In this document: piece by piece, positions 763-63,754 of the stretch | How the letters are laid out: the number at the start of each line of letters is the position of its first letter | Numbering within the stretch: the stretch's first letter is position 1 | Source: Microbulbifer agarilyticus | GTDB lineage: Bacteria > Pseudomonadota > Gammaproteobacteria > Pseudomonadales > Cellvibrionaceae | NCBI RefSeq assembly: GCF_001999945.1 | Contig: NZ_CP019650.1 | Span: 3,839,501-3,903,500 of the forward strand | Length of the DNA: 64,000 bases | Direction of reading: 5' to 3' | Made by a program: the position numbers and the translations under genes | The notes under the pieces: model-generated | Told to the model about the DNA's origin: nothing | Seen by the model: only the letters and a program-made list of their open reading frames with translations | Database searches by the model: none

Positions 763-873
763 GGCTGGCTACCGGATGCGGATTTTCAGGACCACTGTAA
801 ACCCATCCCTGGGCGTTGCGGCGCAAACCTCCTGTTTGCGACGCTCCTGAAAATCCGCATCCGATACCCAGCC
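763..873 (+). repeat. 29-nt-arm palindromic repeat, copy 1
   Basis: Arms 763-791 and 845-873 pair with 2 mismatches in 29. The 53-nt core holds a hairpin with loop region ACCCATCCCTGGGC and a second hairpin CGCAAAC/GTTTGCG at 822-840. It lies between tkt and epd, which are transcribed in the same direction. The arm contains GCGGATTTTCAGGA. Confidence 0.92.
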
Positions 874-914
874 TGCAATTCAGACCCCACACATTTTCAG
901 CGGGGTCGAACGTT

Positions 915-2915
915 TTACTTCAGCAGACCTTCTACAGCTTCAACCACTTTATCGGTGGTGATGCCGAAGTGCTTCATCAGGTCGCCTGCCGGTGCGGATT
1001 CACCAAAGGTTTCCATACCGATGATGGCACCGTCGAAGCCAACAAACTTGTACCAGTAGTCCTTGTGCGCAGCTTCCACGGCAACGCGGGCACGCACGGC
1101 AGACGGCAGTACAGATTCGCGATAGTCGGCGCTCTGCGCAGAGAAGGCTTCGGCACACGGCATGGAGACAACGCGTACCTTGCGGCCGGACAACTGTTCC
1201 GCGGCAGCAGTGGCTAGTTCGACTTCGGAGCCGGTGGCGATGATGATCGCTTCCGGTTCGCCGTCGCAATCGCGCAGGATGTAACCACCCTTTTCGACGT
1301 TGGTCAGCTGCTCATCGGTACGCGGCTGTGGGGCCAGGCCCTGACGGCTGAAGATGAGCGCGCTGGGGCCGTCGCTGCGGGCGATCGCCATTTTCCAGCT
1401 TACCGCGGACTCGGTGGCGTCACAGGGGCGCCAGGTCTGCAGGTTCGGGGTGGCGCGCAGTGCGGTCAGCTGTTCTACCGGCTGGTGGGTCGGCCCGTCT
1501 TCACCGAGACCGATGGAGTCGTGGGTGTATACGAAGATGACCTTCTGCTTCATCAGCGCGGCCATACGTACGGCGTTGCGGGCGTATTCCATAAACATCA
1601 GGAAGGTCGCGCCGTACGGTACGAAGCCGCCGTGCAGGGCGATACCGTTCATGATGGCGCTCATGCCGAATTCGCGCACACCGTAGTAAACGTAGTTACC
1701 TGAAGCATCCTCTGGGGTGACACCTTTGGTACCGGACCAAATGGTGAGGTTGGAGCCGGCGAGGTCAGCGGAGCCGCCCAGGAATTCCGGCAACAGCGGG
1801 CCGTAGGCATTCAGGCTGTTCTGGCTGGCTTTACGGGAAGCGATCTTCTCGGCATCCGCCTGGCACTGCTTGATGTACTCGTCGGCCTTGGCCATGAAGT
1901 CCACCGGCAGCTCGCCGCTCATGCGGCGTTCAAATTCGGCAGCCAGCTCCGGATGGGCTTCTTTATAGTCTTCGAAGATGTCTTTCCACTCGTCTTCCTG
2001 CGCTTCGCCTTTGGCGCGCGCGTCCCACGCATGGTACAGGTCTTCAGGTACGTGGAAGGGCTCGTGTTTCCAGCCCAGGGTTTCGCGGACCAGGGCGATT
2101 TCGTCGTGGCCCAGCGGTGCACCGTGACACTCTTCGCGGCCCTGTTTGTTCGGGGAACCAAAGCCGATCACGGTTTTGCAGCAGATGATGGTGGGCTTGT
2201 CGGTTACCGCGCGCGCCTCTTCAATCGCCGCTTTGATCGCCGCCGGATCGTGACCGTCTACATTCGGGATCACGTGCCAACCGTAGGATTCGAAACGCTT
2301 GGGCGTGTCGTCGGTGAACCAGCCTTCTACTTCACCGTCGATGGAAATGCCGTTGTCGTCGTAGAAGCCGATCAGCTTGCCCAGGCCCAGGGTACCGGCC
2401 AGGGAGCAGGCTTCGTGAGAGATGCCTTCCATCAGGCAGCCGTCGCCGAAGAAGCAGTAGGTGAAGTGGTCCACCAGCTCATAGCCATCGCGGTTGAACT
2501 GAGCTGCCATCACTTTCTCGGCCAGCGCCATGCCCACCGCGTTGGTGATGCCCTGGCCAAGCGGGCCGGTGGTGGTTTCTACGCCCGGGGCGTAGCCGTA
2601 TTCCGGGTGCCCCGGAGTCTTGGCGTGCAGCTGACGGAAGTTCTGCAACTCATGGATAGACAGGTCATAGCCTGCCAGATGCAGCAAGGAATACAGCAGC
2701 ATGGAACCGTGGCCATTGGACAGCACGAAGCGGTCGCGGTCCGCCCACTCGGGGTTAGCCGGATTGTGTTTCAGATAGTCGTTCCACAGCACTTCAGCGA
2801 TATCTGCCATACCCATGGGGGCGCCAGGGTGGCCACTGTTGGCTTTTTGGACCGCATCCATAGACAGGGCGCGGATGGCGTTAGCCTTTTCTGTGCGAGA
2901 CGGAGTAGAAGACAT
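915..2915 (-). CDS. tkt: Transketolase
   Basis: Thiamine diphosphate enzyme of the pentose phosphate pathway, moving two-carbon units between sugar phosphates. The 666 residues match the usual family length. The N-terminal cofactor-binding domain shows [10 protein letters not shown] at 27-36, SNGHGSML near 66-73 and GDGCLMEG at 157-164; the central pyrimidine-binding domain carries the family text [12 protein letters not shown] at about 470. It starts with ATG at 2915. It is encoded next to epd and divergently from the SahR-like regulator, an arrangement also seen in Pseudomonas near metK. Confidence 0.97.
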
Positions 2916-3190
2916 AGGGATCTCTCGGTTTGGGATCTTCGGTTCATCAGATGCGCTGCGGTTCCGGCTCTGACGGCCAGTATGCCGCGGTCCCTCTCTG
3001 CCGGCGCATATCGCGGCCCGGCAAAACGGGGGGCGTATTTTCCCGTACTACCCGGTGGGGCGTAAAGTCTAAGGGTTCGTTTCTTCCTTCAGCACAGCAA
3101 CATTTTCCTAACAAATAGCAATCCTGCTGTACCCGCGGGATTCTCCATGGAATTCACCTCACCTGCATCAATTTTTTTAAATACAGCTAA
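2916..3190. other. Divergent intergenic region between tkt and the sahR-like gene
   Basis: This carries the tkt promoter region and, at its right end, the operator and promoter of the regulator described separately. Short reading frames here have no recognisable product. Apart from a T-rich run near 3172-3179 I see no other defined element. Confidence 0.5.
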
Positions 3191-3230
3191 ATCAAAAATT
3201 TTTGATATAGATCAAAAGCACTGCTAGACT
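3191..3230 (+). promoter_or_regulatory. sahR promoter with overlapping palindromic operator
   Basis: A perfect 16-bp palindrome ATCAAAAATTTTTGAT spans 3191-3206 and is followed by a third half-site (ATCAAA at 3211-3216). The right half overlaps a -35 box TTGATA (3202-3207), with a 17-nt spacer to a -10 TAGACT (3225-3230) preceded by TGC. Transcription would start at or next to the ATG at 3238. Operators of this AT-rich inverted form are typical of ArsR-family regulators; autoregulation is an inference. Confidence 0.65.
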
Positions 3231-3237
3231 CCCCGCC

Positions 3238-4215
3238 ATGCTTGAGTCCAATAGTGCCTCCAGCCAACCGGCCGGGGATGACAAACAACATGCCAGCGAC
3301 CAGATTCCGCAACTGGCAGCGACCCTCAAGGCCGCCGGCGATCCGTTGCGTCTGGAGATCTTGCGCCTGCTGGCGCAGGACTCCTACAGCGTGCTGGAGC
3401 TGTGCCACATCTTCGACCTGCGCCAACCAGCGCTTTCGCACCACCTTAAGGTGCTCTCTCAGGCTGGCCTGGTGAGCAAACGCCGCGAGGGCAACAACCT
3501 GTTCTACCGGCGCACCGCCAACAGTGACTTGCTCCAGCAACTGTTCAGTGGCCTCGACCAGCTGCCGCTGGGCGCTGACCGCGCCGCCACCGTGGCCCAG
3601 GTTGCCGCCGAGCGTGCCGAGGCCTCGCGGCGCTTCTTCGCCGACTACGGCAATCGCTTCCGCGAGCAGCAGGAGTTGATCGCCAGTTATAGCGTCTACG
3701 GCCCGCAGGTAGCACAGCTGCTAAAACCCGGCCGTCACGCACTCGAGGTGGGCCCTGGTGAGGGTGAGTTTCTGGAGGAGCTGGCCAGCCGATTTGGCAC
3801 GGTAACCGCGCTGGATCTGTCCCAGACCATGCTCGAACGCGCGCAGGCGTTTTCCGATGACAAGGGCCTGCAGAATATCGAGTTCGTGTGTGATGACACG
3901 CGTGCCGCCGCAGCCCGCCCGGAAAGCGCGGACTGCATTGTGGTGAATATGGTGTTGCACCACACGCCAGATCCCGCGCAGATTTTTCACGATCTGCAAA
4001 AGTCTTTAAGGGCCGGCGGGCAGCTGCTGATTACCGACCTGCACGACCACGCGCAGGACTGGGCAAGGGATGCCTGCGGCGATCTGTGGTTAGGTTTTAC
4101 GCCGCAGCAACTGGTCGAGTGGGCAGCGGACGCAGGCCTGGGCAAAGGGCGCAGTGTGCACAGCGCGCTGCGCAACGGCTTCCAAATTCAGATTCAGGAA
4201 TTTGTTAAACCCTGA
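3238..4215 (+). CDS. SahR-like ArsR-family regulator with methyltransferase domain
   Basis: The 325-residue protein joins an ArsR-type winged helix (about 25-100, recognition helix around QPALSHHLKVLSQAGLV at 63-79) to a class I methyltransferase fold, with SAM/SAH motif LEVGPGEG at 169-176. This architecture defines SahR, described as a repressor of SAM-cycle genes that senses S-adenosylhomocysteine. It is followed after 138 nt by metK, ahcY and metF, which fits that role. There is no ribosome-binding site; the promoter places the transcript start at the ATG, suggesting a leaderless mRNA. The cysteine pair of metal-sensing ArsR proteins is absent. Confidence 0.82.
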   Translation: MLESNSASSQPAGDDKQHASDQIPQLAATLKAAGDPLRLEILRLLAQDSYSVLELCHIFDLRQPALSHHLKVLSQAGLVSKRREGNNLFYRRTANSDLLQQLFSGLDQLPLGADRAATVAQVAAERAEASRRFFADYGNRFREQQELIASYSVYGPQVAQLLKPGRHALEVGPGEGEFLEELASRFGTVTALDLSQTMLERAQAFSDDKGLQNIEFVCDDTRAAAARPESADCIVVNMVLHHTPDPAQIFHDLQKSLRAGGQLLITDLHDHAQDWARDACGDLWLGFTPQQLVEWAADAGLGKGRSVHSALRNGFQIQIQEFVKP

Positions 4216-4353
4216 CAATTCCAAAAAACGCCTTCAAGCAGCAAACCATTTACGTATTAGCCAAGTACTAGGCAGTGTCGGCGGGAGAAACCGTAGTTCC
4301 CCGCGCCAGCATAGGAATAACTGAAGCGCGACAAGCGCATAGGAGAACTCAGC

Positions 4354-5574
4354 ATGAGTGAATACAGCATTTTTACTTCGGAATCAGTCTCCGAAGGCCA
4401 CCCAGACAAAATCGCCGACCAGATTTCCGATGCGGTACTGGACGCCCTGCTGGCACGCGACAAAAACGCCCGTGTTGCCTGTGAAACGCTGGTAAAAACC
4501 GGTATCGCGGTTATTGCCGGCGAAATCAGCACCAATGCCTGGGTCGACCTGGAAGATCTCGTGCGCAAGGTCATTACCGACATCGGTTACACCTCTTCTG
4601 CGGTAGGTTACGACGGCGAAACCTGTGGCGTGATCAATGTCATCGGCAAGCAGTCCGTGGATATCGCGCAGGGCGTGGACCGGGTAAAACCGGAAGACCA
4701 GGGCGCCGGTGACCAGGGCCTGATGTTCGGCTATGCCACCGATGAAACCCCGACGTTCATGCCGTCACCGGTGTACTACGCACACCGTCTGGTGGAGCGT
4801 CAGGCAGAAGCACGCAAGTCCGGCCTGCTGCCGTGGCTCCGCCCGGATGCGAAGAGCCAGGTTACCTTCCGCTACAACGAGCAGGGCGAGCCCTGTGCGA
4901 TCGATGCGGTCGTACTTTCTACCCAACACAATGAAGAAGTGTCTCAGGAAGACCTGCGCGAAGCAGTGATGGAGCTGATCGTGCACCACGTGCTGCCAGC
5001 CGACCTGCTGCATGAAAACACCAAGTACCACATCAACCCGACCGGCAAATTTGTGATCGGTGGGCCTGTGGGCGACTGCGGTCTGACCGGCCGTAAAATT
5101 ATCGTGGACACCTATGGCGGTTCCGCCCGTCACGGCGGCGGCGCTTTCTCCGGTAAGGATCCATCCAAGGTTGACCGTTCCGCAGCTTATGCGGGCCGCT
5201 ACGTAGCGAAAAATATCGTCGCCGCTGGTCTCGCCAAGCGCTGTGAGATTCAGGTGTCCTATGCGATTGGCGTCGCCGAGCCGACCTCTGTTTCTATTAA
5301 CACCTTCGGCACCGGCAACATCAGCGACGAAAAGCTGATCGAACTGGTACGGGAAAACTTCGACCTGCGCCCCTACGCAATCTCCAATGCGCTGGACCTG
5401 CTGCACCCCATGTATCAGCTGACTGCTGCCTATGGCCACTTCGGCCGCGAGCCGTTCGAGCACAGCTACAAGTGGATCGACAGCAACGGTAAGGAACAGG
5501 TAGAGACCTTCACCGCTTTCCCGTGGGAAAAAACCGACAAGGCGGAAACCCTGCGCGCTCAAGCGGGCTTCTAA
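4354..5574 (+). CDS. metK: S-adenosylmethionine synthase
   Basis: Makes S-adenosylmethionine from methionine and ATP in the cytosol. The 406-residue product has the ATP-site text [17 protein letters not shown] near residue 15-31, the signature [12 protein letters not shown] at about 118-129, and the glycine-rich [17 protein letters not shown] near 264-280. The start ATG at 4354 has GGAGA 8 nt upstream. It lies between the SahR-like regulator and ahcY on the same strand. The 138-nt leader contains a small GC hairpin (GGCGGG/CCCGCGCC, about 4278-4304) but I cannot match it to a known SAM riboswitch. Confidence 0.97.
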
Positions 5575-5593
5575 TCAAAAAACACCGAATACA

Positions 5594-5611
5594 GAGGCCC
5601 GCACGGGCCTC
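5594..5611 (+). repeat. Strong hairpin between metK and ahcY
   Basis: GAGGCCCG, a CA loop and CGGGCCTC form an 8-bp stem 26 nt before the ahcY start. No U-run follows, so it is not a canonical terminator; it may act as an mRNA stability or processing element. Confidence 0.6.
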
Positions 5612-5637
5612 CAAGAAAATTCTCAAGGATCTAACTA

Positions 5638-7023
5638 GTGAACCAAATGAGCACCGAATTCAAAGACTTCAAGGTTGCAGATATCAACCTGGCCGACTGG
5701 GGCCGCAAGGAAATTGAAATTGCCGAAGGCGAAATGCCGGCGCTGATCACCCTGCGTGAAAAGTACCGTGCGGAGCAGCCGCTGGCAGGCGCCCGCATCA
5801 TGGGCTGCATCCACATGACCATCCAGACCGCGGTGCTGATTGAAACCCTGGTGGCGCTTGGCGCAGAGGTACGCTGGTCTTCGTGCAACATTTTCTCCAC
5901 CCAGGACCACGCCGCTGCGGCCATCGCCGCGCGCGGAATCCCGGTATTTGCCTGGAAAGGTGAGACCGAAGAGGAATACGAGTGGTGCCTGGAACGCACC
6001 ATCGGCGCAGACGCCGCTGGCTGGCAGCCAAACATGATTCTCGATGACGGCGGTGACCTCACCGAACTGCTGCACCGCAAGTACCCAGAGCTGCTGGACA
6101 ACTGTCACGGTATCAGTGAAGAAACCACCACCGGCGTACACCGCCTGCAGGACATGCTAAAGGCAGGTACCCTCAAGGTGCCGGCGATCAACGTGAACGA
6201 CGCCGTAACCAAGAGTAAAAACGACAACAAGTACGGTTGTCGCCACAGCCTGAACGATGCCATTAAGCGCGGCACCGACCACCTGCTGTCCGGCAAAAAA
6301 GCGCTGGTTATCGGTTACGGTGATGTGGGCAAAGGCTCTGCGGCGTCCCTGCGCCAGGAAGGCATGATCGTAAAAGTGACCGAGGTTGACCCCATCTGTG
6401 CCATGCAGGCCTGTATGGACGGTTTCGAACTGGTTTCCCCGTATATCAACGGCGAAAACAACGGCACCGCAGATTGCATCGACCGCAGCCTGCTCGCCAA
6501 TACTGACCTGATCGTGACGACTACCGGCAACGTGAATGTGTGCGACGCGCACATGCTGGCGGCACTGAAGTCCGGTGCAGTGGTGTGCAACATCGGCCAC
6601 TTCGACAACGAAATCGACACCGCGTTTATGCGCGAAAACTGGGAGTGGCAGGAAGTGAAACCGCAGGTGCACAAGATTGTGCGCGATGCGGCGACCAACG
6701 ATCACCTGCTGCTGTTGTCCGAAGGTCGCCTGGTAAACCTGGGCAACGCCACCGGCCACCCCAGCCGCATCATGGACGGCTCCTTCGCCAACCAGGTACT
6801 GGCTCAGATCCACCTGTACAAGGAAAAGTTTGCCGACCTGCCCGCAGACCAGAAAGTATCCGCGCTGTACGTAAAAGTACTGCCGAAGCACCTGGACGAA
6901 GAAGTGGCCAAGTACATGGTCGAGGGCTTTGGCGGCGTAATTACACGCATGACCGAAGACCAGGCCAAATATATCGGCGTATCTGTTGACGGCCCGTACA
7001 AGCCAGAAAGCTACAAGTATTAA
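5638..7023 (+). CDS. ahcY: Adenosylhomocysteinase
   Basis: NAD-dependent enzyme that hydrolyses S-adenosylhomocysteine to homocysteine and adenosine, relieving product inhibition of methyltransferases. The 461 residues contain the substrate-domain text [11 protein letters not shown] near 56-66, the NAD motif [10 protein letters not shown] near 225-234, and the conserved C-terminal tail ending in SYKY. The start could be GTG 5638, preceded by AAGGA, or ATG 5647; I give the longer form. With metK upstream and metF downstream it completes the cycle that the SahR-like protein is expected to control. Confidence 0.96.
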
Positions 7024-7027
7024 GATG

Positions 7028-7071
7028 CCTCAGGACCGGTCGTGAGTCACCATCGCGACCGGTATCCGAGG
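7028..7071 (+). promoter_or_regulatory. Hairpin in the metF leader
   Basis: ACCGGTCG (7035-7042) pairs perfectly with CGACCGGT (7056-7063), and CCTC (7028-7031) pairs with GAGG (7068-7071) to extend the stem. The GAGG side is the purine-rich stretch just before the metF ribosome-binding region, so folding could limit translation. It does not match the SAH riboswitch core I know. Confidence 0.45.
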
Positions 7072-7086
7072 GAACGGAAAAGAACA

Positions 7087-7926
7087 ATGAGTGATTTACG
7101 TATTAGTTTTGAGTTTTTCCCACCCAAGACCGAAGAGGGTCGGGAAAAACTGAAGAGCACCCGCGAGCAGCTGCAAGCATTTAACCCGGAGTTTTTCTCC
7201 GTTACCTACGGTGCCGGCGGCACCACCCGCGATACCACCGCCAATATTGTGTGCGGCCTGCGGGAAAAGGGGGTTTCCATTGCACCGCACCTGTCATTTG
7301 GCGGCGACAACGAAGAGATCGTGCTGGGCCTGCTGAACCGCTACAAGGAAGCCGGCGTCGACCGCATCGTGGCCCTGCGCGGTGACATGCCTTCCGGTAT
7401 GGGTGCCGTTGCGCAGCTGGTGTACGCCAACGAATTGGTAGCCTTTATCCGCCGCCATACCGGTGACCACTTTCACCTGGAAGTCGCGGCCTACCCGGAA
7501 ATTCATCCGGAAGCCGGCAGTTACGATGACGATATCCGCTATCTGAAAGGCAAGTTTGATGCAGGTGCCAACAGCGCCCTGACGCAATACTTCTATAACC
7601 CGGATGCGTATTTCTATTTCCTGGATCAGTGCGCCAAGGCCGGTATCGATGCGCCGATTTACCCCGGCATCATGCCGATCACCAACTTCACCAACCTGGC
7701 GCGCTTCTCCCGCAACTGCGGCGCAGAAATCCCGCGCTGGCTTAAGTACCGCATGGAAAGCTTCAGCAATCCGGATGATGTAAAAAAGCTGGGTTTGGAA
7801 ATCGTCACCGACCTGTGCGAAACCCTGCTCGAGGGCGGCGCGCCCGGACTGCATTTCTACACCATGAATCAGGTGGGGCCGACGGCCAGTATTCTGGATG
7901 CACTGCAGCTGACGCGGGAAGCCTGA
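7087..7926 (+). CDS. metF: Methylenetetrahydrofolate reductase
   Basis: FAD enzyme that makes 5-methyltetrahydrofolate, the methyl donor for homocysteine remethylation. The 279-residue barrel protein opens with ISFEFFPPKTEEG (6-18) and carries FSVTYGAGGTTRDTT near 38-52 and LRGD near 97-100, typical of the family. An in-frame ATG at 7042 would add 15 basic residues encoded by the upstream hairpin; 7087 is preferred because it matches the usual N-terminus and has GGAA 6-9 nt upstream. It is the last gene of the SAM-cycle cluster and ends at a bidirectional terminator. Confidence 0.95.
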   Translation: MSDLRISFEFFPPKTEEGREKLKSTREQLQAFNPEFFSVTYGAGGTTRDTTANIVCGLREKGVSIAPHLSFGGDNEEIVLGLLNRYKEAGVDRIVALRGDMPSGMGAVAQLVYANELVAFIRRHTGDHFHLEVAAYPEIHPEAGSYDDDIRYLKGKFDAGANSALTQYFYNPDAYFYFLDQCAKAGIDAPIYPGIMPITNFTNLARFSRNCGAEIPRWLKYRMESFSNPDDVKKLGLEIVTDLCETLLEGGAPGLHFYTMNQVGPTASILDALQLTREA

Positions 7927-7935
7927 CCCCTTACT

Positions 7936-7967
7936 TTGACGGCGCCGTGATCGGCGCCGTCAATTTT
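7936..7967. terminator. Bidirectional terminator between metF and the OmpA-like gene
   Basis: TTGACGGCGCC, a 6-nt loop and GGCGCCGTCAA form an 11-bp stem followed by TTTT on the plus strand, with an A-rich complement serving the convergent gene. Confidence 0.8.
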
Positions 7968-8620
7968 CAATTCGCTGGCGGCCCGCTGGCACCATCTCGC
8001 CCTGCTTTCTTCGGCGACCCCAAACGCACGTTCAGCGGCTTGCCATCGAAGTCGATCACCCGCACCACCAAACGTCGATTTTTCTCACGCCCGCGTTGAG
8101 TGGCATTGTCTGCGATTGGGTCGGAATCTCCGAGCCCTGCAGCTTCCACACGGCCGGAATCAATTCCTCGCTCCAGTAAAAACTGACGCACCCAGTCAGC
8201 CCGCCACTGCGATAGCTTGCGATTTTTATCGGGATCACCGGCGTTGTCCGTATGTCCTTCCACCACAATCTTGAGTGCTGGAAAATCGCGCATGATAACC
8301 AGCAGAGCCTCGACATCCCCCAACGTATCCATCTTGGGAGCAAAGCCGCCGGGAAGAAAATCCACCGCCAACACAAAGCTATCTCCCAGCTCCCGTGTCT
8401 GCCCCATCAAGTAGCGCACCATATCGTCGCCAAACGGGGCCGCTTCGCGGGCAGTTTTTTCGCTTAAGCCATTGCTCACAAGTTCCCGTGGATCGAGAGC
8501 GTATTTCTTGGTGGGATCGGTACAGCCCGTCGCAAGCAGGATAGCAAGCGTTAAAGGAGGCATTGCGAAGATGTAGCTACGACGGGTACGCAGTGAAGAC
8601 TTTGAACATGCGTTGGGCAT
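7967..8620 (-). CDS. OmpA-family lipoprotein
   Basis: Predicted outer-membrane lipoprotein of 217 residues. A basic N-terminus and hydrophobic stretch lead to a lipobox LATGC at about 29-33. The C-terminal half is an OmpA/MotB peptidoglycan-binding domain with VVEGHTDNAGDP near 118-129 and an NRRLVVRV motif near 180-187. The ATG at 8620 has GAGGAG 9 nt upstream; an internal ATG at 8563 would still leave a lipoprotein signal. The residues between lipobox and OmpA domain suit a short tether. Transcribed alone, convergent with metF. Confidence 0.85.
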   Translation of the reverse strand: MPNACSKSSLRTRRSYIFAMPPLTLAILLATGCTDPTKKYALDPRELVSNGLSEKTAREAAPFGDDMVRYLMGQTRELGDSFVLAVDFLPGGFAPKMDTLGDVEALLVIMRDFPALKIVVEGHTDNAGDPDKNRKLSQWRADWVRQFLLERGIDSGRVEAAGLGDSDPIADNATQRGREKNRRLVVRVIDFDGKPLNVRLGSPKKAGRDGASGPPAN

Positions 8621-8854
8621 GGGGTCAGCTCCTCAACGAGAATCTATGGGCGCCCGCGACGTACACGAGCACCTGCGTTTTAACGATTCTAGAGTCAGGG
8701 AAAAGTATTCCCTAGGTGAACCCAAGCATCATCCTTCACCGCCACCAGCCTAACCGGCACAGCCTTCAACAAAACCTCTGAGTACGCGTATTTCTGAAAA
8801 GACCAACGGGACTCTAACCTTCACAAATTGCCCAAAGCCCTCTGGGAGATGGCT

Positions 8855-9607
8855 ATGAACAAACAGCTCCTGCTTACCATTCTCGGCATCGCCGCCATTG
8901 CCTGGGCGCTGGTGTTTAACGCCAAGGTCACTGCACAGCAAATCGTCACCGTGGATCCGGGGGATGCCTGGCTGAATGCCAGTGAAGGCTATCAGGAGAA
9001 AGTAACCTGGCGCATTGCCAGTAGGGGCGGTGCCGCCTCACCGCGCGGGGTGTTTGTAAATCTGGATAACAACGAAGAGCTCGCGGTAGTTGACCAAATT
9101 CTCGAATTCAGTGGCGACAGCGGTCAGCTGACAGAGATCGTACAAATTTCTCCGGTGCAGGCACGAAGCTGGCACCAGAAAGGGGTCAGAAGAGTTGGCT
9201 ACCGACGCGTGTTTGCCGGCCCCTCAGGCAGCCTTTCCAACCATATCCTGTTTGATCTGGACTCCAGCGGTCGCCTGGCACAAGTAAAGGCCTCACCACC
9301 CTCACAGACCGTAAGCGGCAAATCCCGTCAAATGATGATGGCATGGAACCTGGATAGCGACCTGGGCAACATCAGCGCGACATCCACCAGCGGACAATTT
9401 CTGGTGGGAGACACGGTAATTTACGAGGTCGCTGAAGCGGTAACCGCGCAGGCCGGCAAGCCATTGCGAGAAACTGTTGAATTACCGCCCGGCCTGGTGC
9501 GGTCATTACTGGCGCAGGGTATTAATGAGGTGCGCTACACCCGGACTTTTGTGGATGAAAAGGACACGCGGCGCAGCGCTTCAGTAGAGGTTCAATTGAC
9601 GGAGTAG
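8855..9607 (+). CDS. Secreted protein with two related halves, function unknown
   Basis: The 250-residue product starts with a signal peptide (MNKQLLLTILGIAAIAWAL, then an Ala-rich cleavage region). The rest looks beta-rich and internally duplicated: a hydrophobic strand, then a segment ending GVRRVGYRRVF near 115-125 in the first half and GINEVRYTRTF near 222-232 in the second, each preceded by a matching P-V-Q/L-P-P-G-L-V stretch. I do not recognise a family. The start at 8855 is chosen because GGGAG lies just upstream, although an in-frame ATG exists at 8828. It stands alone with no operon partner. Confidence 0.6.
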   Translation: MNKQLLLTILGIAAIAWALVFNAKVTAQQIVTVDPGDAWLNASEGYQEKVTWRIASRGGAASPRGVFVNLDNNEELAVVDQILEFSGDSGQLTEIVQISPVQARSWHQKGVRRVGYRRVFAGPSGSLSNHILFDLDSSGRLAQVKASPPSQTVSGKSRQMMMAWNLDSDLGNISATSTSGQFLVGDTVIYEVAEAVTAQAGKPLRETVELPPGLVRSLLAQGINEVRYTRTFVDEKDTRRSASVEVQLTE

Positions 9608-9628
9608 CAGCACAATACGTTAAATACG

Positions 9629-9790: not shown

Positions 9791-9876
9791 GGCTTTGCTT
9801 CCTTTCTGCTTAGTTACTTTTTTATTTAGCTACTTTCTGTTTAGTTGCTTGCTGTATGTTAGTTTGCCAGTGCTTC

Positions 9877-11675: not shown

Positions 11676-11763
11676 AGGGACTTCCAGATCCAGGAAAACA
11701 TTGCGTGAAGGGTAATACAGGCAGAAAGGAAGTTGTAGTTAGAACCCCGCGGCCACGGGATAA

Positions 11764-11831
11764 GGCCGCTTGGTGGCCTTGCAAGGAACAGTTGCCGCTC
11801 AGGTTGTGGAGTGCAGGGCCACCAAGCGGCC
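11764..11831. repeat. Inverted repeat with perfect 15-bp arms
   Basis: GGCCGCTTGGTGGCC (11764-11778) is matched by its exact complement GGCCACCAAGCGGCC (11817-11831) across a 38-nt spacer, in the gap between the end of the RND permease gene and the start of rsmE. No U-run follows. It lacks the 29-nt arms and core of the dispersed family, so it is a different element. Confidence 0.75.
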
Positions 11832-11857
11832 GCCACTGCACCCACAAAGTGCTCGAG

Positions 11858-26938: not shown

Positions 26939-26975
26939 AGGGCCTGCCACTACGCAGTACAGAAGCCGAATTGAA

Positions 26976-27101
26976 GGCAGGCTGCCGGGTAAGAGTTTTC
27001 AGGATCGTCGTCGCCATGGATGGCGGCGCCGAAGCGTACATGGATGTACTCGCTGGGGGGCGCCTAGCCCGGTCCTGAAAACTCTTACCCGGTGGCCTGC
27101 C
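26976..27101 (-). repeat. 29-nt-arm palindromic repeat, copy 3 (long core)
   Basis: Arms 26976-27004 and 27073-27101 pair with 2 mismatches in 29. The core is 68 nt, with hairpins CGCCAT/ATGGCG and GTACAT/ATGTAC plus an extra GGGCGCCTAGCCCGG segment shared in reverse with copy 9. The left flank CTACGCAGTACAGAAGCC is shared with copy 5. It sits between hutC and hutU. Confidence 0.9.
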
Positions 27102-27192
27102 GCCACAAGACACACAAATGAACCCCGGGGCCAAAAGCCCCAAGAAACTCCAATTCAAACTATCCAGAGAATTTGGAACAGACGAGGCAACC

Positions 27193-36606: not shown

Positions 36607-36648
36607 AAAGCACAGCAAAGCTTACGCAGTACAGAAGCCTAAATTGAA

Positions 36649-36759
36649 GGCCGGGTAGCGGAGGCGAGTTTTCAGGATCGTCGCAAACAGGAAGTTTGCG
36701 ACGAAGCGCCCAGGGATGGGTTCACAGCGCTCCTGAAAACTCGCCTCCGCTACACGGCC
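36649..36759 (-). repeat. 29-nt-arm palindromic repeat, copy 5
   Basis: Arms 36649-36677 and 36731-36759 pair with 1 mismatch in 29. The 53-nt core has the hairpin CGTCGCAAAC/GTTTGCGACG followed by AGCGCCCAGGGATGGG, the reverse orientation of copy 1. The left flank GCTTACGCAGT then AATTGAAGG is shared with copy 9 in reverse. It lies between liuC and liuD. Confidence 0.93.
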
Positions 36760-36817
36760 GCCAGAAAAGCCGGAACAGAGCTCCACCAAGAGCGCGAAAA
36801 ACCAAACAGAGCCAGCC

Positions 36818-50104: not shown

Positions 50105-50229
50105 GTGGCCTCCGTTGCTACAGGGAAATATTCAAATCCTTTAATTCATTAAATCACCGGATATCGATTTTGTCTTGGCTCAGAGCAAGACGACACAGCA
50201 TGAGGCTCGTATTGATCGCGCCTTCTGGC

Positions 50230-50341
50230 GGTGAAGTACCGGGTATCGTTTTTCGAAACCGCTGTGAATACGTCCCTGTACGCTGCGTCGGCGACATCCC
50301 TGTCGCCGACGCTTTCGAAAAACGATACCCGGCACTCCACC
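50230..50341 (+). repeat. 29-nt-arm palindromic repeat, copy 6
   Basis: Arms 50230-50258 and 50313-50341 pair with 2 mismatches in 29. The 54-nt core uses the alternative modules GAATACGTCCCTGTACGC and GTCGGCGAC/GTCGCCGAC around CATCCCT. The right flank ACCTTCGCAT is shared with copies 4 and 10. It lies between acs and the stress protein gene. Confidence 0.92.
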
Positions 50342-50475
50342 TTCGCATTTAGCGAATATATTTCACATGTGACCTGGTAAAACTTGAACGTGGCAACGGG
50401 AATGGAAAGGAAAGTGCTGGGGCGGGTTCCCCCCACTGGGCGCCCAATAGAACGCCCAGGGACGGAGGGAAGTAA

Positions 50476-54177: not shown

Positions 54178-54179
54178 AG

Positions 54180-56045: not shown

Positions 56046-56143
56046 TGAGATGGGTGGAATCCTACCTTGAGTTTGGGAGTATGGTAGGCAGGTGGTTTAG
56101 TGGTCACAAGCGGCCAACAGCGCCCTTATGAAAGTTAGGTGGC

Positions 56144-56255
56144 GACAAAGCACTGGGGATACGTTTTCGAAACCGCTGTGAACCCATCCTTGGGCGCTGC
56201 GGCGGCGACGTCCCTGTCGCCGACGCTTTCGAAAACGTATCCCCAGCACTTTGTC
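56144..56255 (+). repeat. 29-nt-arm palindromic repeat, copy 7
   Basis: Arms 56144-56172 and 56227-56255 pair with 2 mismatches in 29. The 54-nt core combines ACCCATCCTTGGGC with the hairpin CGGCGAC/GTCGCCG around GTCCCT. It forms an inverted doublet with copy 8, 61 nt away, upstream of the deacetylase-GNAT operon and downstream of panD. Confidence 0.92.
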
Positions 56256-56316
56256 TGCTCGTCGGACATGTGCCCTGATCAAACTCTAGAATCGAAGCAG
56301 AGATGCAAAAAGTGAA

Positions 56317-56427
56317 GGTAGAGTGACGGGTACTGGCTTTCAGGAGCGTCGCAAACAGGATGTTTGCGCCGCAGCGCCCAGGGATGGGTTCACAGCGGTC
56401 CTGAAAGCCAGTACCCGGCGCTCTGCC
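56317..56427 (-). repeat. 29-nt-arm palindromic repeat, copy 8
   Basis: Arms 56317-56345 and 56399-56427 pair with 3 mismatches in 29. The 53-nt core runs in reverse orientation, hairpin GCAAAC/GTTTGC first, then AGCGCCCAGGGATGGG. Second member of the doublet with copy 7. Confidence 0.9.
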
Positions 56428-56460
56428 GCCACCGGGCTAGCTAAAGTGGACCACTGATTA

Positions 56461-56850
56461 TCAGACAGGCTCAGACATCTGCACAGGAATAGTATTGGTA
56501 CTACGCTCAACCCGATTCTGCTCATCCAAATAAACAAGCTTGGGTTTGAAAGAGACGGCCTCAGCCTCAGACATCTGTGCATAGGCGGCAATAATAATAC
56601 GATCGCCAACCTGCACGCGGCGCGCTGCAGCACCATTCATCGAAATAATGCCAGAACCCCGCTCCGCCAGAATCACATAGGTGTGAAAGCGCTCACCATT
56701 GGAAACATTGTAGATATCGATTTTTTCAAATTCGCGCAGCCCGGCAAGTTCAACCAAATCTTCATCGATCGCACAGGAGCCGTCGTACCAGAGTTCCGCC
56801 TGGGTAACCGCCGCCATATGCAGCTTGCCTTTCAACATCTCAATTTGCAT
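56461..56850 (-). CDS. panD: Aspartate 1-decarboxylase proenzyme
   Basis: Makes beta-alanine from aspartate for pantothenate. The 129-residue proenzyme cleaves itself at Gly24-Ser25 in WYDGSCAID to create the pyruvoyl group; the motif is intact, and [20 protein letters not shown] near 76-95 is typical. The start at 56850 follows CAGGAG. It begins 16 nt after panC ends, so panC-panD are co-transcribed. panB is not in the window. Confidence 0.95.
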
Positions 56851-56866
56851 TAACGAACTCCTGACT

Positions 56867-57715
56867 TCACACACTCAAGGAAACATTGTCGATCAAGCGC
56901 GCACCGCTGGTGTACATGGCGCCGAGAATTGTGATCTCACTATCGTCGTGGGCTGCAGGCTGCAGGTCCTTGCTATTGCAGATGGAAAAGTAGTCCACCT
57001 TAAAACCCGCCTGCTCGATTTTCGCCCGCGCTTCATCTTCCAACGCTACGAAATCCTTGCGACCAGATTTGATCTCATCGCTCACCCAGTTCAGCGACCG
57101 ATTGAGAATCGCCACACGCGGGCGTTCCTCTTCACTCAGGTAACCATTGCGCGAGCTCATCGCCAGACCGTCGTCTTCGCGGTGCACCGGTGCCGCAACA
57201 ATCTCCACCGGCATACACAGGTCTTCCACCATACGGCGGATTACCGCCAGCTGCTGGAAGTCCTTGATACCGAACACCGCCTTGTTTGGCTGCACGATGT
57301 TAAACAGCTTTGCCACCACCGTAGTCACGCCTTCAAAGTGCCCCGGGCGGCTCGCGCCACACAGCACATCGGTCATCGCCGGGCAGATGACTTTGGTCTG
57401 CTCGTCCATCCCATTGGGGTAGATTTCGGCTTCATCCGGGTGGAACAGGTAATCACAGTTGGCCGCGCGTAGCTTGGCCATGTCCGCCTGCATGGTACGG
57501 GGGTAGGTGTCCCAATCTTCATTGAGCCCGAATTGCAGGCGATTAACGAAGATCGACACCACCACTACGTCACACTGCTTGCGGGCCAGATTGACCAGTT
57601 CGATGTGCGCGTCGTGCAGGTTGCCCATGGTAGGCACGAATCCGATGGTTTTGCCATCGCGACGGGCCTCTGCCAGCGCCTCGCGCAGGCTGGCCACGTG
57701 GTGAAAAACTTGCAT
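56867..57715 (-). CDS. panC: Pantothenate synthetase, divergent
   Basis: Joins pantoate and beta-alanine using ATP, 282 residues. The HIGH-like region reads [14 protein letters not shown] near 28-41, keeping His34 and His37 but with Asp-Ala in place of the usual Glu/Asp-Gly. FVNRLQFG near 56-63 has Arg where Pro is normal, and FGIKDFQQ near 146-153 has Ile where Glu is normal; the catalytic Gln and Lys remain. MSSRNGYLS near 182-190 is conserved. A start upstream at 57790 is possible but adds non-family residues. It is followed by panD. Confidence 0.9.
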
Positions 57716-57941
57716 TGCCGGGGTTCCGCCAAGTGGTTGGTTGCGCGGCATCTTACCTTCCGCGGGGACACCGAACAAATCGAGAAGCATTGGTCACATT
57801 CGGTTTTTGCCGCCAGGAGAAGTTTCTGCAACCGGTTCAGGAAGGATTCAGTGTACAGGGGGCACACTGACCCCCACGTTATCGAGAAGCCTTTGCATAA
57901 GGCCACAGAGTCAGCCACACGGATGGCTGAGGAGAACGACC

Positions 57942-58679
57942 ATGAAAACACTGATCACTGCCGTTGCCACCGCCAGCTTGCTGCTGACCACAGCGCCCGC
58001 CCTGGCCGACCGGGACGACCGCCATCACCGCAACGACCACGGCCGCAAGCACATGCAGCAGCGCGACCACCAGGTGCGGCACGGCAACCGGGTCCGTGAC
58101 ATCGCCGACAAACGGCGTGACGAACAGAACCGTCGCCACGATCGCCACCAAGACAAAAAGCACTATCACAAGCAAGAAGCGCGCAAACACGAGCGCAAGG
58201 CGGATAGGCATGAACATCAAGCGCGCAAACATGAACGCAAGGCACGCAAGCACGACCGCAAATACTACAAGGACTATCAGTATGTGGACTACCGCGGACA
58301 CAATAAGCCCCGTCACAAGCCACACTACAAGCCGCATCACCGCCCGCACCATCGGCCTTACCACCGCCCGCACAAGCATCGCTGGCGCCCGGCGCACTTT
58401 GGTTACGGCTACCGCTGGAAGCGTTTGCCCACGTCCTATGTCAGCCTGAGTTTTGGCGGCCTGGGCTACTACTTCAGCGACGGTATTTTTTACCGCCCTT
58501 ACGGTGCCGGCTACGTGGTGGCCGAGGCCCCAGTAGGTGCCTTTGTTCGCACTCTGCCGGGTACCGCATTCAGCGTCAGCTTTAATGGCCTGAACTACTT
58601 TGTTGCCTACGACACCTATTACCAGTGGAACCACCATAGACACGGTTATGTGGTGGTGGCCAACCCGGGCTTCCTCTGA
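57942..58679 (+). CDS. His-rich secreted protein with a C-terminal DUF6515-like domain
   Basis: A 245-residue protein with a signal peptide (MKTLITAVATASLLLTTAPA, cleavage near LA-DR). Residues 20-140 are extraordinarily rich in His, Lys and Arg, with repeats of the type KHERKADRHEHQ and HKPHYKPHHRPHHRP. The C-terminal 95 residues (YVSLSFGGLGYYFSDGIFYR near 165-184, then AYDTYYQW) resemble DUF6515. The His-rich part could bind metals or acidic polymers; neither is shown. The ATG follows AGGAGA. A terminator follows. Confidence 0.75.
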   Translation: MKTLITAVATASLLLTTAPALADRDDRHHRNDHGRKHMQQRDHQVRHGNRVRDIADKRRDEQNRRHDRHQDKKHYHKQEARKHERKADRHEHQARKHERKARKHDRKYYKDYQYVDYRGHNKPRHKPHYKPHHRPHHRPYHRPHKHRWRPAHFGYGYRWKRLPTSYVSLSFGGLGYYFSDGIFYRPYGAGYVVAEAPVGAFVRTLPGTAFSVSFNGLNYFVAYDTYYQWNHHRHGYVVVANPGFL

Positions 58680-58721
58680 TTTCCAACCCCAACAACCGAA
58701 TATTTATTCGGTTACTTCCCC

Positions 58722-58750
58722 AGGCGACTCTCACGAGTCGCCTTTTTTAT
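58722..58750 (+). terminator. Terminator after the His-rich protein gene
   Basis: AGGCGACTC, a 3-nt loop and CGAGTCGCC, followed by TTTTTTAT. A canonical rho-independent signal. Confidence 0.9.
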
Positions 58751-58977
58751 TTATAAATAACTCAAGGCTTTCGCCTAACCCGTTGCGACAAAAACAAGTC
58801 TTTGGCGATATACAAAAAACGAATAAAAAACCGAATAAAAATTTAGTTTTAACCTTGTTGATTTATCCGCAATTTCTTTTCATTCCTTATTGATTTCCAC
58901 ACAACCAAACCCCAAGATTCGCGCCCCGAATACGGCACCGGGTGCCATCCAATACTTGCCCAAATTTAACAGGCGCT

Positions 58978-60900
58978 ATGAAGCAACAACAGATCGAAAA
59001 CTGGACCTGCGAAGACTCCGCAGCGCTCTACGGTATCCGCAACTGGGGCGCCGATTACTTCAACCTGAACCAGAGCGGTGAAATCACGGTTGAGGTGAAA
59101 AATAACGCCGGCGAATTGCATGCAGTGTCGCTGCTGGATATTGCCCACGGTGCCACCGAGCGCGGACTGGGCATGCCGCTGCTGGTGCGCTTTGAAAACC
59201 TGCTCGACGCACAAATCGCACGTATCAACAATTCTTTCCACAGCGCGATCGACAGTTGCGGTTACAACAATGTGTTCCGCGGCGTTTTTCCAATCAAGGT
59301 CAACCAGCAGTGCCAGGTGATCGAGGAAATTGCCAAGGCCGGACGCAGCTTCGGACATGGGCTTGAAGCGGGCAGTAAGGCGGAGCTCATTGCCGCACTT
59401 TCGATCCTCGACAATACCGATGCGCTCATCGTCTGCAATGGTTACAAGGACGAGGAATTCATCAACTTGGGTTTGCAGGCACAGCGCCTCGGCGTACAGG
59501 TGTTTTTCGTGGTGGAAACACCGTCGGAAGTGGACACCATCATTCGCTGCGCCGAGCGCGAGCAGATCGAGCCCAATATTGGCGTGCGGGTAAAACTGGC
59601 CAGCAAGGTGGGCGGCTACTGGAACGCCACCAGCGGCGACCGCAGCATTTTCGGCCTCGGCAGTAACGACCTCATTGCGATGGTCGACAAACTGCGGGAT
59701 CACAATATGCTGCATTGCCTGCGCTTATTGCACTACCACCTGGGTTCGCAGGTGCCGAATATCCGCGATATCCGCACCGGAGTGCTGGAAGCCTGTCGCT
59801 ACTATGCGGACCTGGTGGAAGAGGGCGCGGCCATGGGTTACCTGGACCTCGGCGGCGGCCTGGCGGTGGACTACGATGGCTCCAAGACCAACTACACCCA
59901 CTCCAAGAACTACTCTCTGGATGAGTACTGTGTGGATGTGGTGGAAGCCATTATGGAGACCCTCGACAGCGAGGGCGTTACCCACCCGGTCATCATTACC
60001 GAATCCGGGCGCGCAACCGTCGCCTACTCATCCGTCTTGTTGTTCAACATTCTGGATACCACCAGCTTCGAGCCCATCGAACTGGAAGACGACCGTATCG
60101 GCAGCGATGCGCATCCAATGCTGAAGAACCTGCAGGAAGCACTGGAGAGCGTAGCGCCGGAAAACCTGCAGGAAAGCTACAACGACGGGCTCTACTACCG
60201 CGACGAGATCCGCGCACTTTACTTACACGGTCAGGTGAGCCTGCGCGACCGCGCGCTGGCGGAAAACCTGTTCCTGCAGTGCGCACAAAAAATCCGCAAG
60301 CTACTCGATGAAGTCGACCAGATTCCGGCTGACTTGGAAGCACTACCGGAAGTACTGTCCGACATCTATTACGCGAACATGAGTGTGTTCCAGTCGCTGC
60401 CCGACATCTGGGCGATTGATCAACTGTTTCCACTATTACCCGTGCACCGTCTGGACGAGGCACCGACACGTTCGGCGATCATCGCGGATATCACCTGCGA
60501 CTGTGACGGCAAGATCGATCGCTTTATCGATCGCCAGGGCGAGCGCAAAACGCTACCGCTGCACCCACTGAAAGAAGGCGAGGAATATATCCTCGGCACT
60601 TTTCTGGTCGGTGCCTACCAGGAGACTCTCGGCGATCTACACAACCTGTTCGGTGACACGAATGTGGTCAGTGTACGGATCGACGAGGATGGACATGTGG
60701 ATTACAGCCGCGAAATCCACGGTGACAGCATTGCCGATGTGCTTAGTTACGTGGAGTACTCACCGCAGGATTTGTTCGAGCGTTTCCGCAAATTGGCGGA
60801 GCGCGCAGTGAAGGAAAAGCGCATTAGCCCGCAACAGCGCAAAGATATTTTGCACACCTATACCGCAAGCATGAGCGGATATACCTACTTCGAGAAGTAA
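58978..60900 (+). CDS. speA: Biosynthetic arginine decarboxylase
   Basis: PLP enzyme that converts arginine to agmatine, the first step towards putrescine. The 640 residues open with YGIRNWGADYFNLNQSGEI near 16-34; FRGVFPIKVNQQCQV near 99-113 holds the PLP lysine, and LGGGLAVDYDGSKTNYTHS in part near 294-312 is the glycine-rich PLP loop. The start is at 58978. It heads a polyamine run with carboxynorspermidine dehydrogenase, nspC and speB downstream. Confidence 0.96.
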   Translation: MKQQQIENWTCEDSAALYGIRNWGADYFNLNQSGEITVEVKNNAGELHAVSLLDIAHGATERGLGMPLLVRFENLLDAQIARINNSFHSAIDSCGYNNVFRGVFPIKVNQQCQVIEEIAKAGRSFGHGLEAGSKAELIAALSILDNTDALIVCNGYKDEEFINLGLQAQRLGVQVFFVVETPSEVDTIIRCAEREQIEPNIGVRVKLASKVGGYWNATSGDRSIFGLGSNDLIAMVDKLRDHNMLHCLRLLHYHLGSQVPNIRDIRTGVLEACRYYADLVEEGAAMGYLDLGGGLAVDYDGSKTNYTHSKNYSLDEYCVDVVEAIMETLDSEGVTHPVIITESGRATVAYSSVLLFNILDTTSFEPIELEDDRIGSDAHPMLKNLQEALESVAPENLQESYNDGLYYRDEIRALYLHGQVSLRDRALAENLFLQCAQKIRKLLDEVDQIPADLEALPEVLSDIYYANMSVFQSLPDIWAIDQLFPLLPVHRLDEAPTRSAIIADITCDCDGKIDRFIDRQGERKTLPLHPLKEGEEYILGTFLVGAYQETLGDLHNLFGDTNVVSVRIDEDGHVDYSREIHGDSIADVLSYVEYSPQDLFERFRKLAERAVKEKRISPQQRKDILHTYTASMSGYTYFEK

Positions 60901-60938
60901 CTTTTGGTTTCCCCACTATCAGGAACAGGGAGAAAGAA

Positions 60939-62138
<1,200 letters not shown>

Positions 62139-62213
62139 TTCGAACACCGCTTACATCCCGGGCGCACTTTCACGTAGCCCGGGACTCTCGCACTCCAGCG
62201 GATGAATTGAAAT

Positions 62214-63407
62214 ATGGATCTGACACCCCGCAGAGACTACTTTGGCGAATTCGACCCCAGTAGGGTACCCACACCCTGCTTTGTGGTCGACGAAATTGCC
62301 CTGCGCGATAACCTCGAAGTGCTGGCCGATGTGCAACAGCGCAGCGGTGCCAAGGTGCTCGCCGCACTGAAAGCCTTCTCCATGTTCAGCGTCGGGCACA
62401 TCGTCGTCGAATACCTGTCCGGCACCTGTGCCAGTGGTATCAACGAGGCAAAACTCGGCTTCGAGGAATACGGCGGCAAGGATCTCGGCAAGGAAGTACA
62501 TGTCTTCAGTGCAGGCTACAAAGAGCAAGAACTGGAGGAAATTCTTCAGTTTGCGCACCACGTGATATTCAACTCATTTTCGCAGTGGCATCGCTACAAG
62601 CCCATGTGTCTTGCCGCACAAAAGAAGCGTTCGGAGTTGCGCTTTGGCCTGCGTATCAATCCCGAGCACTCGGAAGGCCACACGCCAATTTACGATCCAT
62701 GTGCACCCTGCTCACATCTTGGCATAGTCCGTTCGCTGTTTGAAGATGAAGACCTGACCGGCATCAGCGGCCTGCACTTCCACACCTTGTGTGAACAGGA
62801 TTTCGAGCCCCTGCAACGCACGATTGCGGCGGTGGAAAAGAAGTTTGGCGATCTGCTGCCACAGATTGAGTGGATCAACTTTGGCGGCGGCCACCATATT
62901 ACCCGCCGGGATTATCAGGTTGAGGCGTTAATCGACGCGGTTAAGGGCTTCTCGAAAAAGCACAATGTGCAGGTTTATCTCGAACCCGGCGAAGCGGTGG
63001 CCCTGTTCTGTGGTGTGCTGGTAGGCGAAGTGATCGATCTAACCTGGAATGGCAAGCAACAGGCGATTCTGGATGTGTCCGCGACCTGCCATATGCCCGA
63101 CGTGATCGAAATGCCCTACCGCCCGGAAATTACCGGTGCCAGCCTGCCGCAGGAATTGCCCCACGCCTATTTGCTGGGCGGACAGAGCTGCCTCGCGGGG
63201 GATCGAATTGGTGAATACAGCTTTGCCGAGCCATTGAATATCGGCGACCGTTTGGTGTTTGAAGAGATGGCGTATTACACCATGGTCAAAACCAACACGT
63301 TTAATGGGATTCCGCTGCCTTCGATTGCACTGTGGAATTCGGATACGGATGAACTCCGGATGATCAAAGAGTTTGGTTATGAAGATTTTAGGAACCGTCT
63401 GTCATGA
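62214..63407 (+). CDS. nspC: Carboxynorspermidine/carboxyspermidine decarboxylase
   Basis: PLP-dependent fold III decarboxylase of 397 residues that finishes spermidine or norspermidine synthesis. The PLP lysine is in GAKVLAALKAFSMFSV near 44-59, HFHTLCEQ near 190-197 and FGGGHHITRRDY near 223-234 are conserved, and the catalytic cysteine lies in GQSCLAGD near 323-330. It begins 75 nt after the dehydrogenase gene. The two repeats that follow separate it from speB. Confidence 0.94.
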   Translation: MDLTPRRDYFGEFDPSRVPTPCFVVDEIALRDNLEVLADVQQRSGAKVLAALKAFSMFSVGHIVVEYLSGTCASGINEAKLGFEEYGGKDLGKEVHVFSAGYKEQELEEILQFAHHVIFNSFSQWHRYKPMCLAAQKKRSELRFGLRINPEHSEGHTPIYDPCAPCSHLGIVRSLFEDEDLTGISGLHFHTLCEQDFEPLQRTIAAVEKKFGDLLPQIEWINFGGGHHITRRDYQVEALIDAVKGFSKKHNVQVYLEPGEAVALFCGVLVGEVIDLTWNGKQQAILDVSATCHMPDVIEMPYRPEITGASLPQELPHAYLLGGQSCLAGDRIGEYSFAEPLNIGDRLVFEEMAYYTMVKTNTFNGIPLPSIALWNSDTDELRMIKEFGYEDFRNRLS

Positions 63408-63446
63408 TCTAACTTTGCTTGGGTCCGTTTTTATGTACACCGTGGC

Positions 63447-63571
63447 GGGAAGGCACCGGGTACAGATATTCGGGACCGGGCTAGGCGCCCCCCTGTGAAC
63501 CCATCCCTGGGCGCTGCGGCGCAAACATTCTGTTTGCGACGCTCCCAAATATCTGTACCCGGTACCTTCCC
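63447..63571 (+). repeat. 29-nt-arm palindromic repeat, copy 9 (long core)
   Basis: Arms 63447-63475 and 63543-63571 pair with 2 mismatches in 29. The 67-nt core contains the extra CCGGGCTAGGCGCCCC segment seen in reverse in copy 3, then ACCCATCCCTGGGC and CGCAAAC/GTTTGCG. The right flank ends CACTGCGTAAGC, the reverse of the left flank of copy 5. Confidence 0.92.
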
Positions 63572-63642
63572 TTCAATTCCAACACTCGCACTGCGTAAGC
63601 TGATTTATTAATGAGTTACGGAGCACATGACCAAAATGCGAA

Positions 63643-63754
63643 GGCCGAGCGCCGGGTGTTTGTTTTCAAAAGCGTCGGCGCCATGGACGGCGCCGACGCA
63701 GCTTACAGGGACGTATTCACAGCGGTTTTGAAAACAAACACCCGGCGCTTGGCC
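63643..63754 (-). repeat. 29-nt-arm palindromic repeat, copy 10
   Basis: Arms 63643-63671 and 63726-63754 pair with 1 mismatch in 29. The 54-nt core has a perfect 11-bp hairpin GCGTCGGCGCC (63672-63682)/GGCGCCGACGC (63689-63699) and then CAGGGACGTATTCACAGCG. It forms an inverted doublet with copy 9, 71 nt away, and ends 38 nt before speB. Confidence 0.93.

Follow-up and report, generated by a model that had tools for sequence, protein, structure and literature searches.

A dispersed palindromic repeat of Microbulbifer agarilyticus is kept as a fold of the strand that shows GGA in two hairpin loops

The primary description of YPAL, the dispersed repeat also called RU-2, is reportedly that of De Gregorio (2006). 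YPAL is found in 60 intergenic regions of Y. pestis (PMC2759123), and has been presented as an insertion that is mobile, has empty as well as filled sites and duplicates 3–26 bp of its target near dyads; a role in the RNA stability of upstream transcripts has also been proposed (PMC2229807). TwoAYGGAY (Rfam RF01731) is an RNA predicted by Weinberg et al. in 2010 (PMC2864571), and Yersinia small RNA (sRNA) 224, or Ysr224, is modelled in Rfam as RF02770. Repetitive extragenic palindromes (REP) and bacterial interspersed mosaic elements (BIME), which are linked to REP-associated tyrosine transposases (RAYT), carry a GTAG/CGTC tag beside a palindrome of 20–40 nt (PMC3733652). The regulator CsrA/RsmA recognizes GGA in a hairpin loop, with the consensus RUACARGGAUGU obtained by systematic evolution of ligands by exponential enrichment (SELEX) (PMC4347634). 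Here we describe a palindromic repeat that occurs in ten copies in 64,000 nt of the Microbulbifer agarilyticus chromosome (contig NZ_CP019650.1, positions 3,839,501 to 3,903,500; hereafter the window) and shares its fold and loops with TwoAYGGAY, Ysr224 and YPAL. No paper joining these families, or describing this repeat in the genus, was found in a literature search that left most subscription papers outside.

The repeat is a three-way junction, made of a long, variable stem (P1, ~29 pairs) and two further small hairpins (P2 and P3) formed by the conserved core between the arms. Read on the strand of our covariance model, a typical copy runs GTGGCGG, first arm, CCG, P2, P3, second arm and CCTTC; a second subtype has the inner end GAC-ACGCC. 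An initial annotation of the window had reported uniformly and tightly paired 29-nt arms that co-vary between copies and have only an inner TTTC-purines-A and an outer GG in common. The length is right (about 29–30 nt), but the outer third pairs imperfectly in some copies, and the common letters also include the outer GTGGCGG...CCTTC, a mid-arm CACCGGGT consensus and the conserved core. That the arms co-vary is borne out. An alignment of the ten copies has changes on both sides at 31 of 48 pairs, and 89.2% of its cells pair, against a shuffled value of 71.6%; when the partner is slid by 1–3 columns, pairing falls to 37–45%. RNA folding of five of the ten copies, on the model strand, gave z-scores of −10.1 to −11.8, and none of 200 shuffles was as good. 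Between the 5' arms of 44 distinct copies of the same genome, the median difference is 13 of 26 nt, and the arms still pair. The same is seen in an alignment of 60 copies (out of 66 prepared references) from many genera, with mostly unrelated arms: the covariation score was 0.801, against 0.184 in shuffles and 0.12–0.21 in slid controls, and both sides change at each of the 25 P1 and 7 P3 pairs, P2 being invariant by design because the copies were picked by their P2 pattern.

The main new result is that this fold belongs to one strand. A G·U mismatch on one strand is an A·C on its complement, and a symmetric cause, such as cruciform formation, template switching or plain decay, would give both classes equally. 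On the strand that shows GGA in both small loops (the GGA strand), P1 of the 44 copies contains 54 G·U, 13 A·G, 6 G·G and 1 U·U mismatches, while A·C, C·U and C·C are all absent; 33 copies lean toward the GGA strand and none toward the opposite one. Over five genomes the counts are 110 G·U versus 1 A·C, and 45 versus 1 when the five positions with frequent wobble are removed. Only ungapped arms that pass a score threshold (≥13 within the genus) enter these counts, so that decayed copies are missed or under-counted. For the rest of the class, copies from named genomes were picked by P2 pattern alone, which avoids selecting on arms (at least 120 stretches); 69 of 113 had ungapped arms scoring ≥15, with a median of 28 pairs, and the class-wide counts rest on these 69. 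They contain G·U 51 versus A·C 10, A·G 21 versus C·U 7, and G·G 15 versus C·C 0, and 33 copies lean toward the GGA strand versus 7. The GGA strand is also the more stable RNA fold in 38 of the 44 and in 60 of the 69 copies. The mismatch asymmetry and the greater RNA stability thus single out the strand with GGA in both loops as the one which folds and whose folding is under selection; folding of a single strand can produce such an asymmetry, and no strand-symmetric cause can by itself. The earlier statement that most arm mismatches are transitions holds, strand specificity being the stronger fact. Of the two causes offered then for the paired arms, selection on folding stands, now with a strand, whereas symmetric hairpin copying alone does not, as the imperfect pairs are nearly all of kinds that are stable on a single strand, and double changes grow with divergence (see below).

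The ten copies were all recovered at the positions given initially. In the following list the strand is that of the GGA loops, opposite to the model strand; gene calls throughout are longest open reading frame (ORF) guesses.

760..881, minus strand: copy 1, covariance model score 119 bits
25904..26025, minus strand: copy 2, between flanking ORFs called as divergent
26968..27104, plus strand: copy 3, with a 14-nt insert between P1 and P2
33993..34115, minus strand: copy 4, second subtype with inner end GAC-ACGCC
36641..36762, plus strand: copy 5
50227..50349, minus strand: copy 6
56141..56263, minus strand: copy 7, first member of a facing pair with copy 8
56309..56430, plus strand: copy 8, second member of that pair
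63444..63579, minus strand: copy 9, first member of a facing pair with copy 10, with a 14-nt insert
63635..63757, plus strand: copy 10, second member of that pair

An independent palindrome scan of the window (26-nt arms, at least 20 matches) returned the same ten copies and one unrelated hairpin at 11759–11836, a 20-nt inverted repeat (95%) that the covariance model does not match. The 14-nt insert (GGGCTAGGCGCCCC type) at the P1–P2 junction of copies 3 and 9 is itself a near-palindrome, and its presence varies by species at the same locus (orthologous copies in L047, L045 and L050). A second palindrome (GGATCCCGGATCAAGTCCGGGATGAC type) adjoins the copy orthologous to 36641 in the relatives G001 and G002 (loci L046 and L051). 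Facing copies lie ~50 nt apart (e.g. 63580–63634), many with a second small palindrome of the CTTCGTAAGC...GCTTACGAAG type.

Comparison with relatives shows how the arms change. Copies in close relatives are mostly at the same junctions and in the same orientation; over the joined region G019 is ~92.7% and G020 ~91.5% identical to the genome studied here. In 34 pairs of orthologous copies with like alleles (80% arm identity threshold; register-corrected, from six overlapping and thus non-independent comparisons), 28 Watson-Crick double changes were counted, next to single changes that on the GGA strand are G-U in 22 cases, A-C in 2 and others in 11; both A-C singles are one G019 mutation counted in two comparisons. 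Only ~3 doubles are expected if the sides changed independently, a figure derived from an earlier, uncorrected count of 36 doubles and 27 singles. The ratio of doubles to singles is 5:20 among the three closest genomes and 23:15 in more distant comparisons, so compensation accumulates over time, as stepwise compensation predicts. At one P1 pair of the 50227 copy the steps are visible: T-A in our genome, a single-change intermediate in G020 (G-U on the GGA strand) and C-G in G019. In G001, copy 4 has P1 changed on both sides and an almost unaltered core. These data bear on neutral palindrome correction, in which template switching between the arms during replication copies mutations from one to the other and keeps pairing without selection. 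Nearly perfect Watson-Crick arms and double changes that include transversions would suit such a process. It is strand-symmetric, however, and the split of 54 to 0 contradicts it as the sole cause; doubles are few in the closest genomes and rise with divergence, and the GGA loops, P2 and P3 are conserved. As the explanation of the repeat we regard it as very improbable, although it could add to the rate of double changes.

Allele replacement is a second process, stronger than change in place. Among the three closest genomes, orthologous same-strand copies have over 20% of their arm places changed in 6 of 16, 8 of 16 and 7 of 14 cases, and often the entire spacer has been exchanged as well (the comparison with G019 and G020 leaves out locus 96141/96309, in joined coordinates). 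Spacers fall below 75% identity in 14 of 39 cases where both genomes have an element, in 4 of 4 where one has it, and in 7 of 150 without any (Fisher p = 1.2e-6 for 14/39 versus 7/150, the comparisons not being independent). Replaced alleles nearly always retain their orientation, which points to recombination rather than fresh insertion. Copy 2 is missing from G002 and present as another allele in G019 and G020. A gain of the 50227 copy in G019 was considered and set aside; loss in others is more likely, since the outgroups G001 and G002 have the copy. The arms might then co-vary mainly through swaps of whole hairpins between copies or species by recombination, under weak selection on folding, a reading that the excess of diverged element-bearing spacers and the retained orientation favor. 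Yet swapping moves complementarity without creating it and yields no strand bias, double changes are also seen in like alleles, and no donor copy was seen: the closest arms among the 44 copies still differ at 4 of 26 places. We consider it an unlikely account of the repeat as a whole.

The repeat is abundant and widely spread. Searching the 4.26-Mb genome with the covariance model built from the ten window copies gave, with 150 candidates scored, at least 109 matches on both strands, merged to at least 73 places; ten is thus the number for the window only. The last half megabase (3.75–4.25 Mb) holds 31 of these places, and the window is dense. Ten close inverted pairs were found, seven plus-minus and three minus-plus. 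There is no replication-strand bias among singletons (28 versus 25, with the origin assumed at coordinate 0). Carriers, with our own genome counted, make up 14 of 19 genomes in a first sample of relatives, 46 of 48 in the genus and 43 of 274 genomes (38 of 222 genera) in a class sample; in a phylum sample the 26 carriers among 398 genomes all belong to the same genome, genus, order or class. The number of candidates scored in each genome was capped, and copy numbers from these many-genome searches are lower bounds. Distant genera keep the core, and their arms are mostly unrelated from genus to genus and often perfect over at least 28 pairs. A plasmid search with one copy as query gave no match. 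Over ~3 kb, our genome is collinear with a contig from an uncultured Microbulbifer sp. at 79–84% identity; Marinobacter contigs are less similar (72–79%).

High copy number, both orientations and a patchy class-wide spread are what a selfish mobile element would leave, and this is the main rival explanation. Such an element would move as a folded single strand, either of DNA, as in REP/RAYT or attC, or of RNA copied back; the GGA strand would fold for mobility only, and resident copies would be by-products, overwritten by better-folding ones. Integron attC sites have R boxes of the form GTTRRRY/RYYYAAC. YPAL/RU-2, which has the same core, is described as mobile, with target duplications and empty and filled sites (PMC2229807), and the strong differences between orthologous copies in genomes ~91–93% identical also favor this reading. 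A contig of uncultured Microbulbifer (L114, 4900–5170) has a copy at a site where our genome (L010, ~2320–2460) has a small, different hairpin, with no clear target duplication between the two. Against this reading, residents show compensation in place, and their GGA strand is nearly free of A-C, which non-functional leftovers should collect, and replaced alleles nearly always keep their orientation, unlike fresh insertions. No clean insertion with target duplication was seen at the few differing sites compared. The REP-associated transposase that had been suggested as a partner proved unlinked: the sole Y1-transposase match of the genome, a 275-aa gene at L001 (C1:353909), has no copy of the repeat in the 3.3 kb around it, and no linked enzyme was found. 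Taken together, we judge a selfish mobile element to be rather unlikely.

In the window, TwoAYGGAY had no match up to E = 1 (gathering score 43), and Ysr224 had three matches on the repeat, of 31.7 (copy 10, the top Rfam match of the window on the repeat), 25.3 and 25.0 bits, below its gathering score of 70. Among the 19 class relatives scanned, one (L098) reached 54 bits with TwoAYGGAY, three remained below threshold (L092 36.8, L102 35.3 and L096 32.0 bits), and the others had no match among those listed. Ysr224 exceeded its threshold in members found by pattern, namely two Yersinia similis copies (129.9 and 126.5) and one Pectobacterium copy (73.3), and did not in two Klebsiella-labelled contigs scanned alongside. 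MicroRNA families matched by Rfam to the long stem are chance matches to a plain hairpin, below cut-offs. The view that the repeat belongs to no named family is therefore only partly right: the window copies score below the Rfam thresholds, but distant members reach those of TwoAYGGAY and Ysr224, and YPAL/RU-2 has, by eye, the same core. Because of these scores we do not assign the window copies to TwoAYGGAY, Ysr224 or YPAL/RU-2; the fold and the loop signature are common to all.

TwoAYGGAY resembles the window repeat in its two GGA-loop hairpins inside an outer stem and in its Rfam model, which is read on the GGA strand. The loops of the window copies, in contrast, are often AGGGAY rather than AYGGAY, and the available text of the TwoAYGGAY description mentions no high-copy dispersed repeat (PMC2864571). 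Of the three-way junction, the Ysr224 model spans P2, P3 and a single arm; the other arm is absent from it. The published 168-nt sequence of YPAL/RU-2 has, by eye, the P3-P2 core in the GGA orientation (Delihas 2007, PMC2759123), and this element is likewise dispersed, intergenic and hairpin-forming. Its core was compared by eye with that of L182; the window copies share its architecture and loops, not the full core letters. The arms and flanks differ, the accessible literature reports YPAL from Yersinia and Erwinia carotovora only, and target duplications have not been seen for the window repeat at the few differing sites. REP/BIME elements are also palindromic, intergenic and present in many dispersed copies and inverted pairs, but the window repeat is a much longer three-way junction. 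The hairpins of CsrB and RsmX/Y/Z likewise have GGA in apical loops, whereas the window repeat consists of dispersed two-site copies whose P2 is, in its own genome, mostly off the SELEX consensus.

GGA is conserved in the small hairpins. The P3 loop keeps it while the stem changes in 89 of 91 hairpins within the genus and 63 of 68 across the class; in-genus loops are mostly AGGAT, AGGGAC, GGGA and AGGAA, with ATGGAC in 7 of 91. Both P3 and P2 have GGA in an apical loop, the feature of a CsrA/RsmA target. Of 20 distant copies found by model R1, 12 have a P2 that departs from the 12-place SELEX consensus at one place at most, and 4 of these match it fully. Our genome has a csrA start. For TwoAYGGAY, a CsrA site has already been put forward in print (PMC4333381), a proposal said to be that of Gardner and Eldai.

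We therefore favor, with a probability of roughly 0.38, a reading in which each copy would be a structured module that acts by the folding of a single strand, probably as RNA, the acting strand being the one with GGA in its two small loops. P1 would serve as a clamp, whose letters are free as long as the GGA strand pairs; the arms would then co-vary in single steps, with G-U on that strand as the intermediate. The conserved working part would be the two small hairpins with GGA loops, which present two CsrA/RsmA-type sites. Because they obey the CsrA/RsmA rule, the likeliest role is predicted to be the holding of CsrA, whether the copies act together as a dispersed sponge or each on its own transcript. 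The ligand is the least certain step of this proposal; RNA as the acting form and a cellular function are inferred as well.

Several observations weigh against this proposal. Single-stranded DNA tolerates the same mismatches as RNA, G·T included. In the fixed-register alignment of 60 copies, with off-register and gap cells included, the lean to the GGA strand shrinks to 53 G·U versus 30 A·C, next to 127 others (p = 0.015). The strict A-N-GGA motif is found in 47 of 91 in-genus P3 hairpins only. In P2 of the 44 copies the SELEX consensus is matched at 12 of 12 places in 2, at 11 in 6 and at 9 or fewer in 33; none of the ten window copies has the full consensus, and their best matches are 11, 11 and 10 places. 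Rfam, moreover, models Ysr224 on the opposite, non-GGA strand, and this, with the poor P2 consensus, weakens the case. In the class sample CsrA is present in 39 of 43 carriers and in 196 of 231 non-carriers and so does not discriminate between them, and one carrier (G249; seven matches, 98% complete) has no PF02599 (CsrA) match, which may be an assembly gap. No promoter was found in one stretch scanned, and none was recognized in conserved flanks. Finally, there is no gene-orientation bias: single tandem copies of three genomes are sense in 16 cases and antisense in 13, the counts are 25 versus 16 (p = 0.21) when orthologues of five genomes are all counted, and 17 versus 25, again without sense bias, across the class. 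A first, crude call had placed 25 of 86 classed copies inside ORFs; the test was repeated after dropping ORFs that overlap elements, and gave no bias before or after. Host mRNAs are therefore not the obvious carrier.

The same lack of sense bias speaks against bidirectional terminators or mRNA stabilizers of 3' regions. An intergenic position, stable hairpins and the stability role proposed for YPAL (PMC2229807) would agree with such elements, but copies are also present in divergent spacers, and no U-run terminator was tied to the long stem at the one locus inspected. We regard this explanation as distinctly unlikely.

Beyond the present repeat, wobble asymmetry offers a simple test for telling the functional strand of a dispersed palindrome from its complement. 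Three things with separate names, namely a predicted RNA, an sRNA of Yersinia and a mobile repeat, are tied here by one core and one fold. It is conceivable, if doubtful, that TwoAYGGAY, Ysr224 and YPAL are one class-wide dispersed family, with up to at least 70 copies per genome, each kept in place as a GGA-strand fold whatever the gene orientation, and together forming a distributed and rapidly rewired CsrA/RsmA sponge. If the ligand is CsrA/RsmA, many gammaproteobacteria would have binding sites in large number that have gone uncounted and that vary even from one close species to another, and the modelling of the Csr network would alter. The sponge reading, if true, would add a repeat-borne layer of post-transcriptional control.

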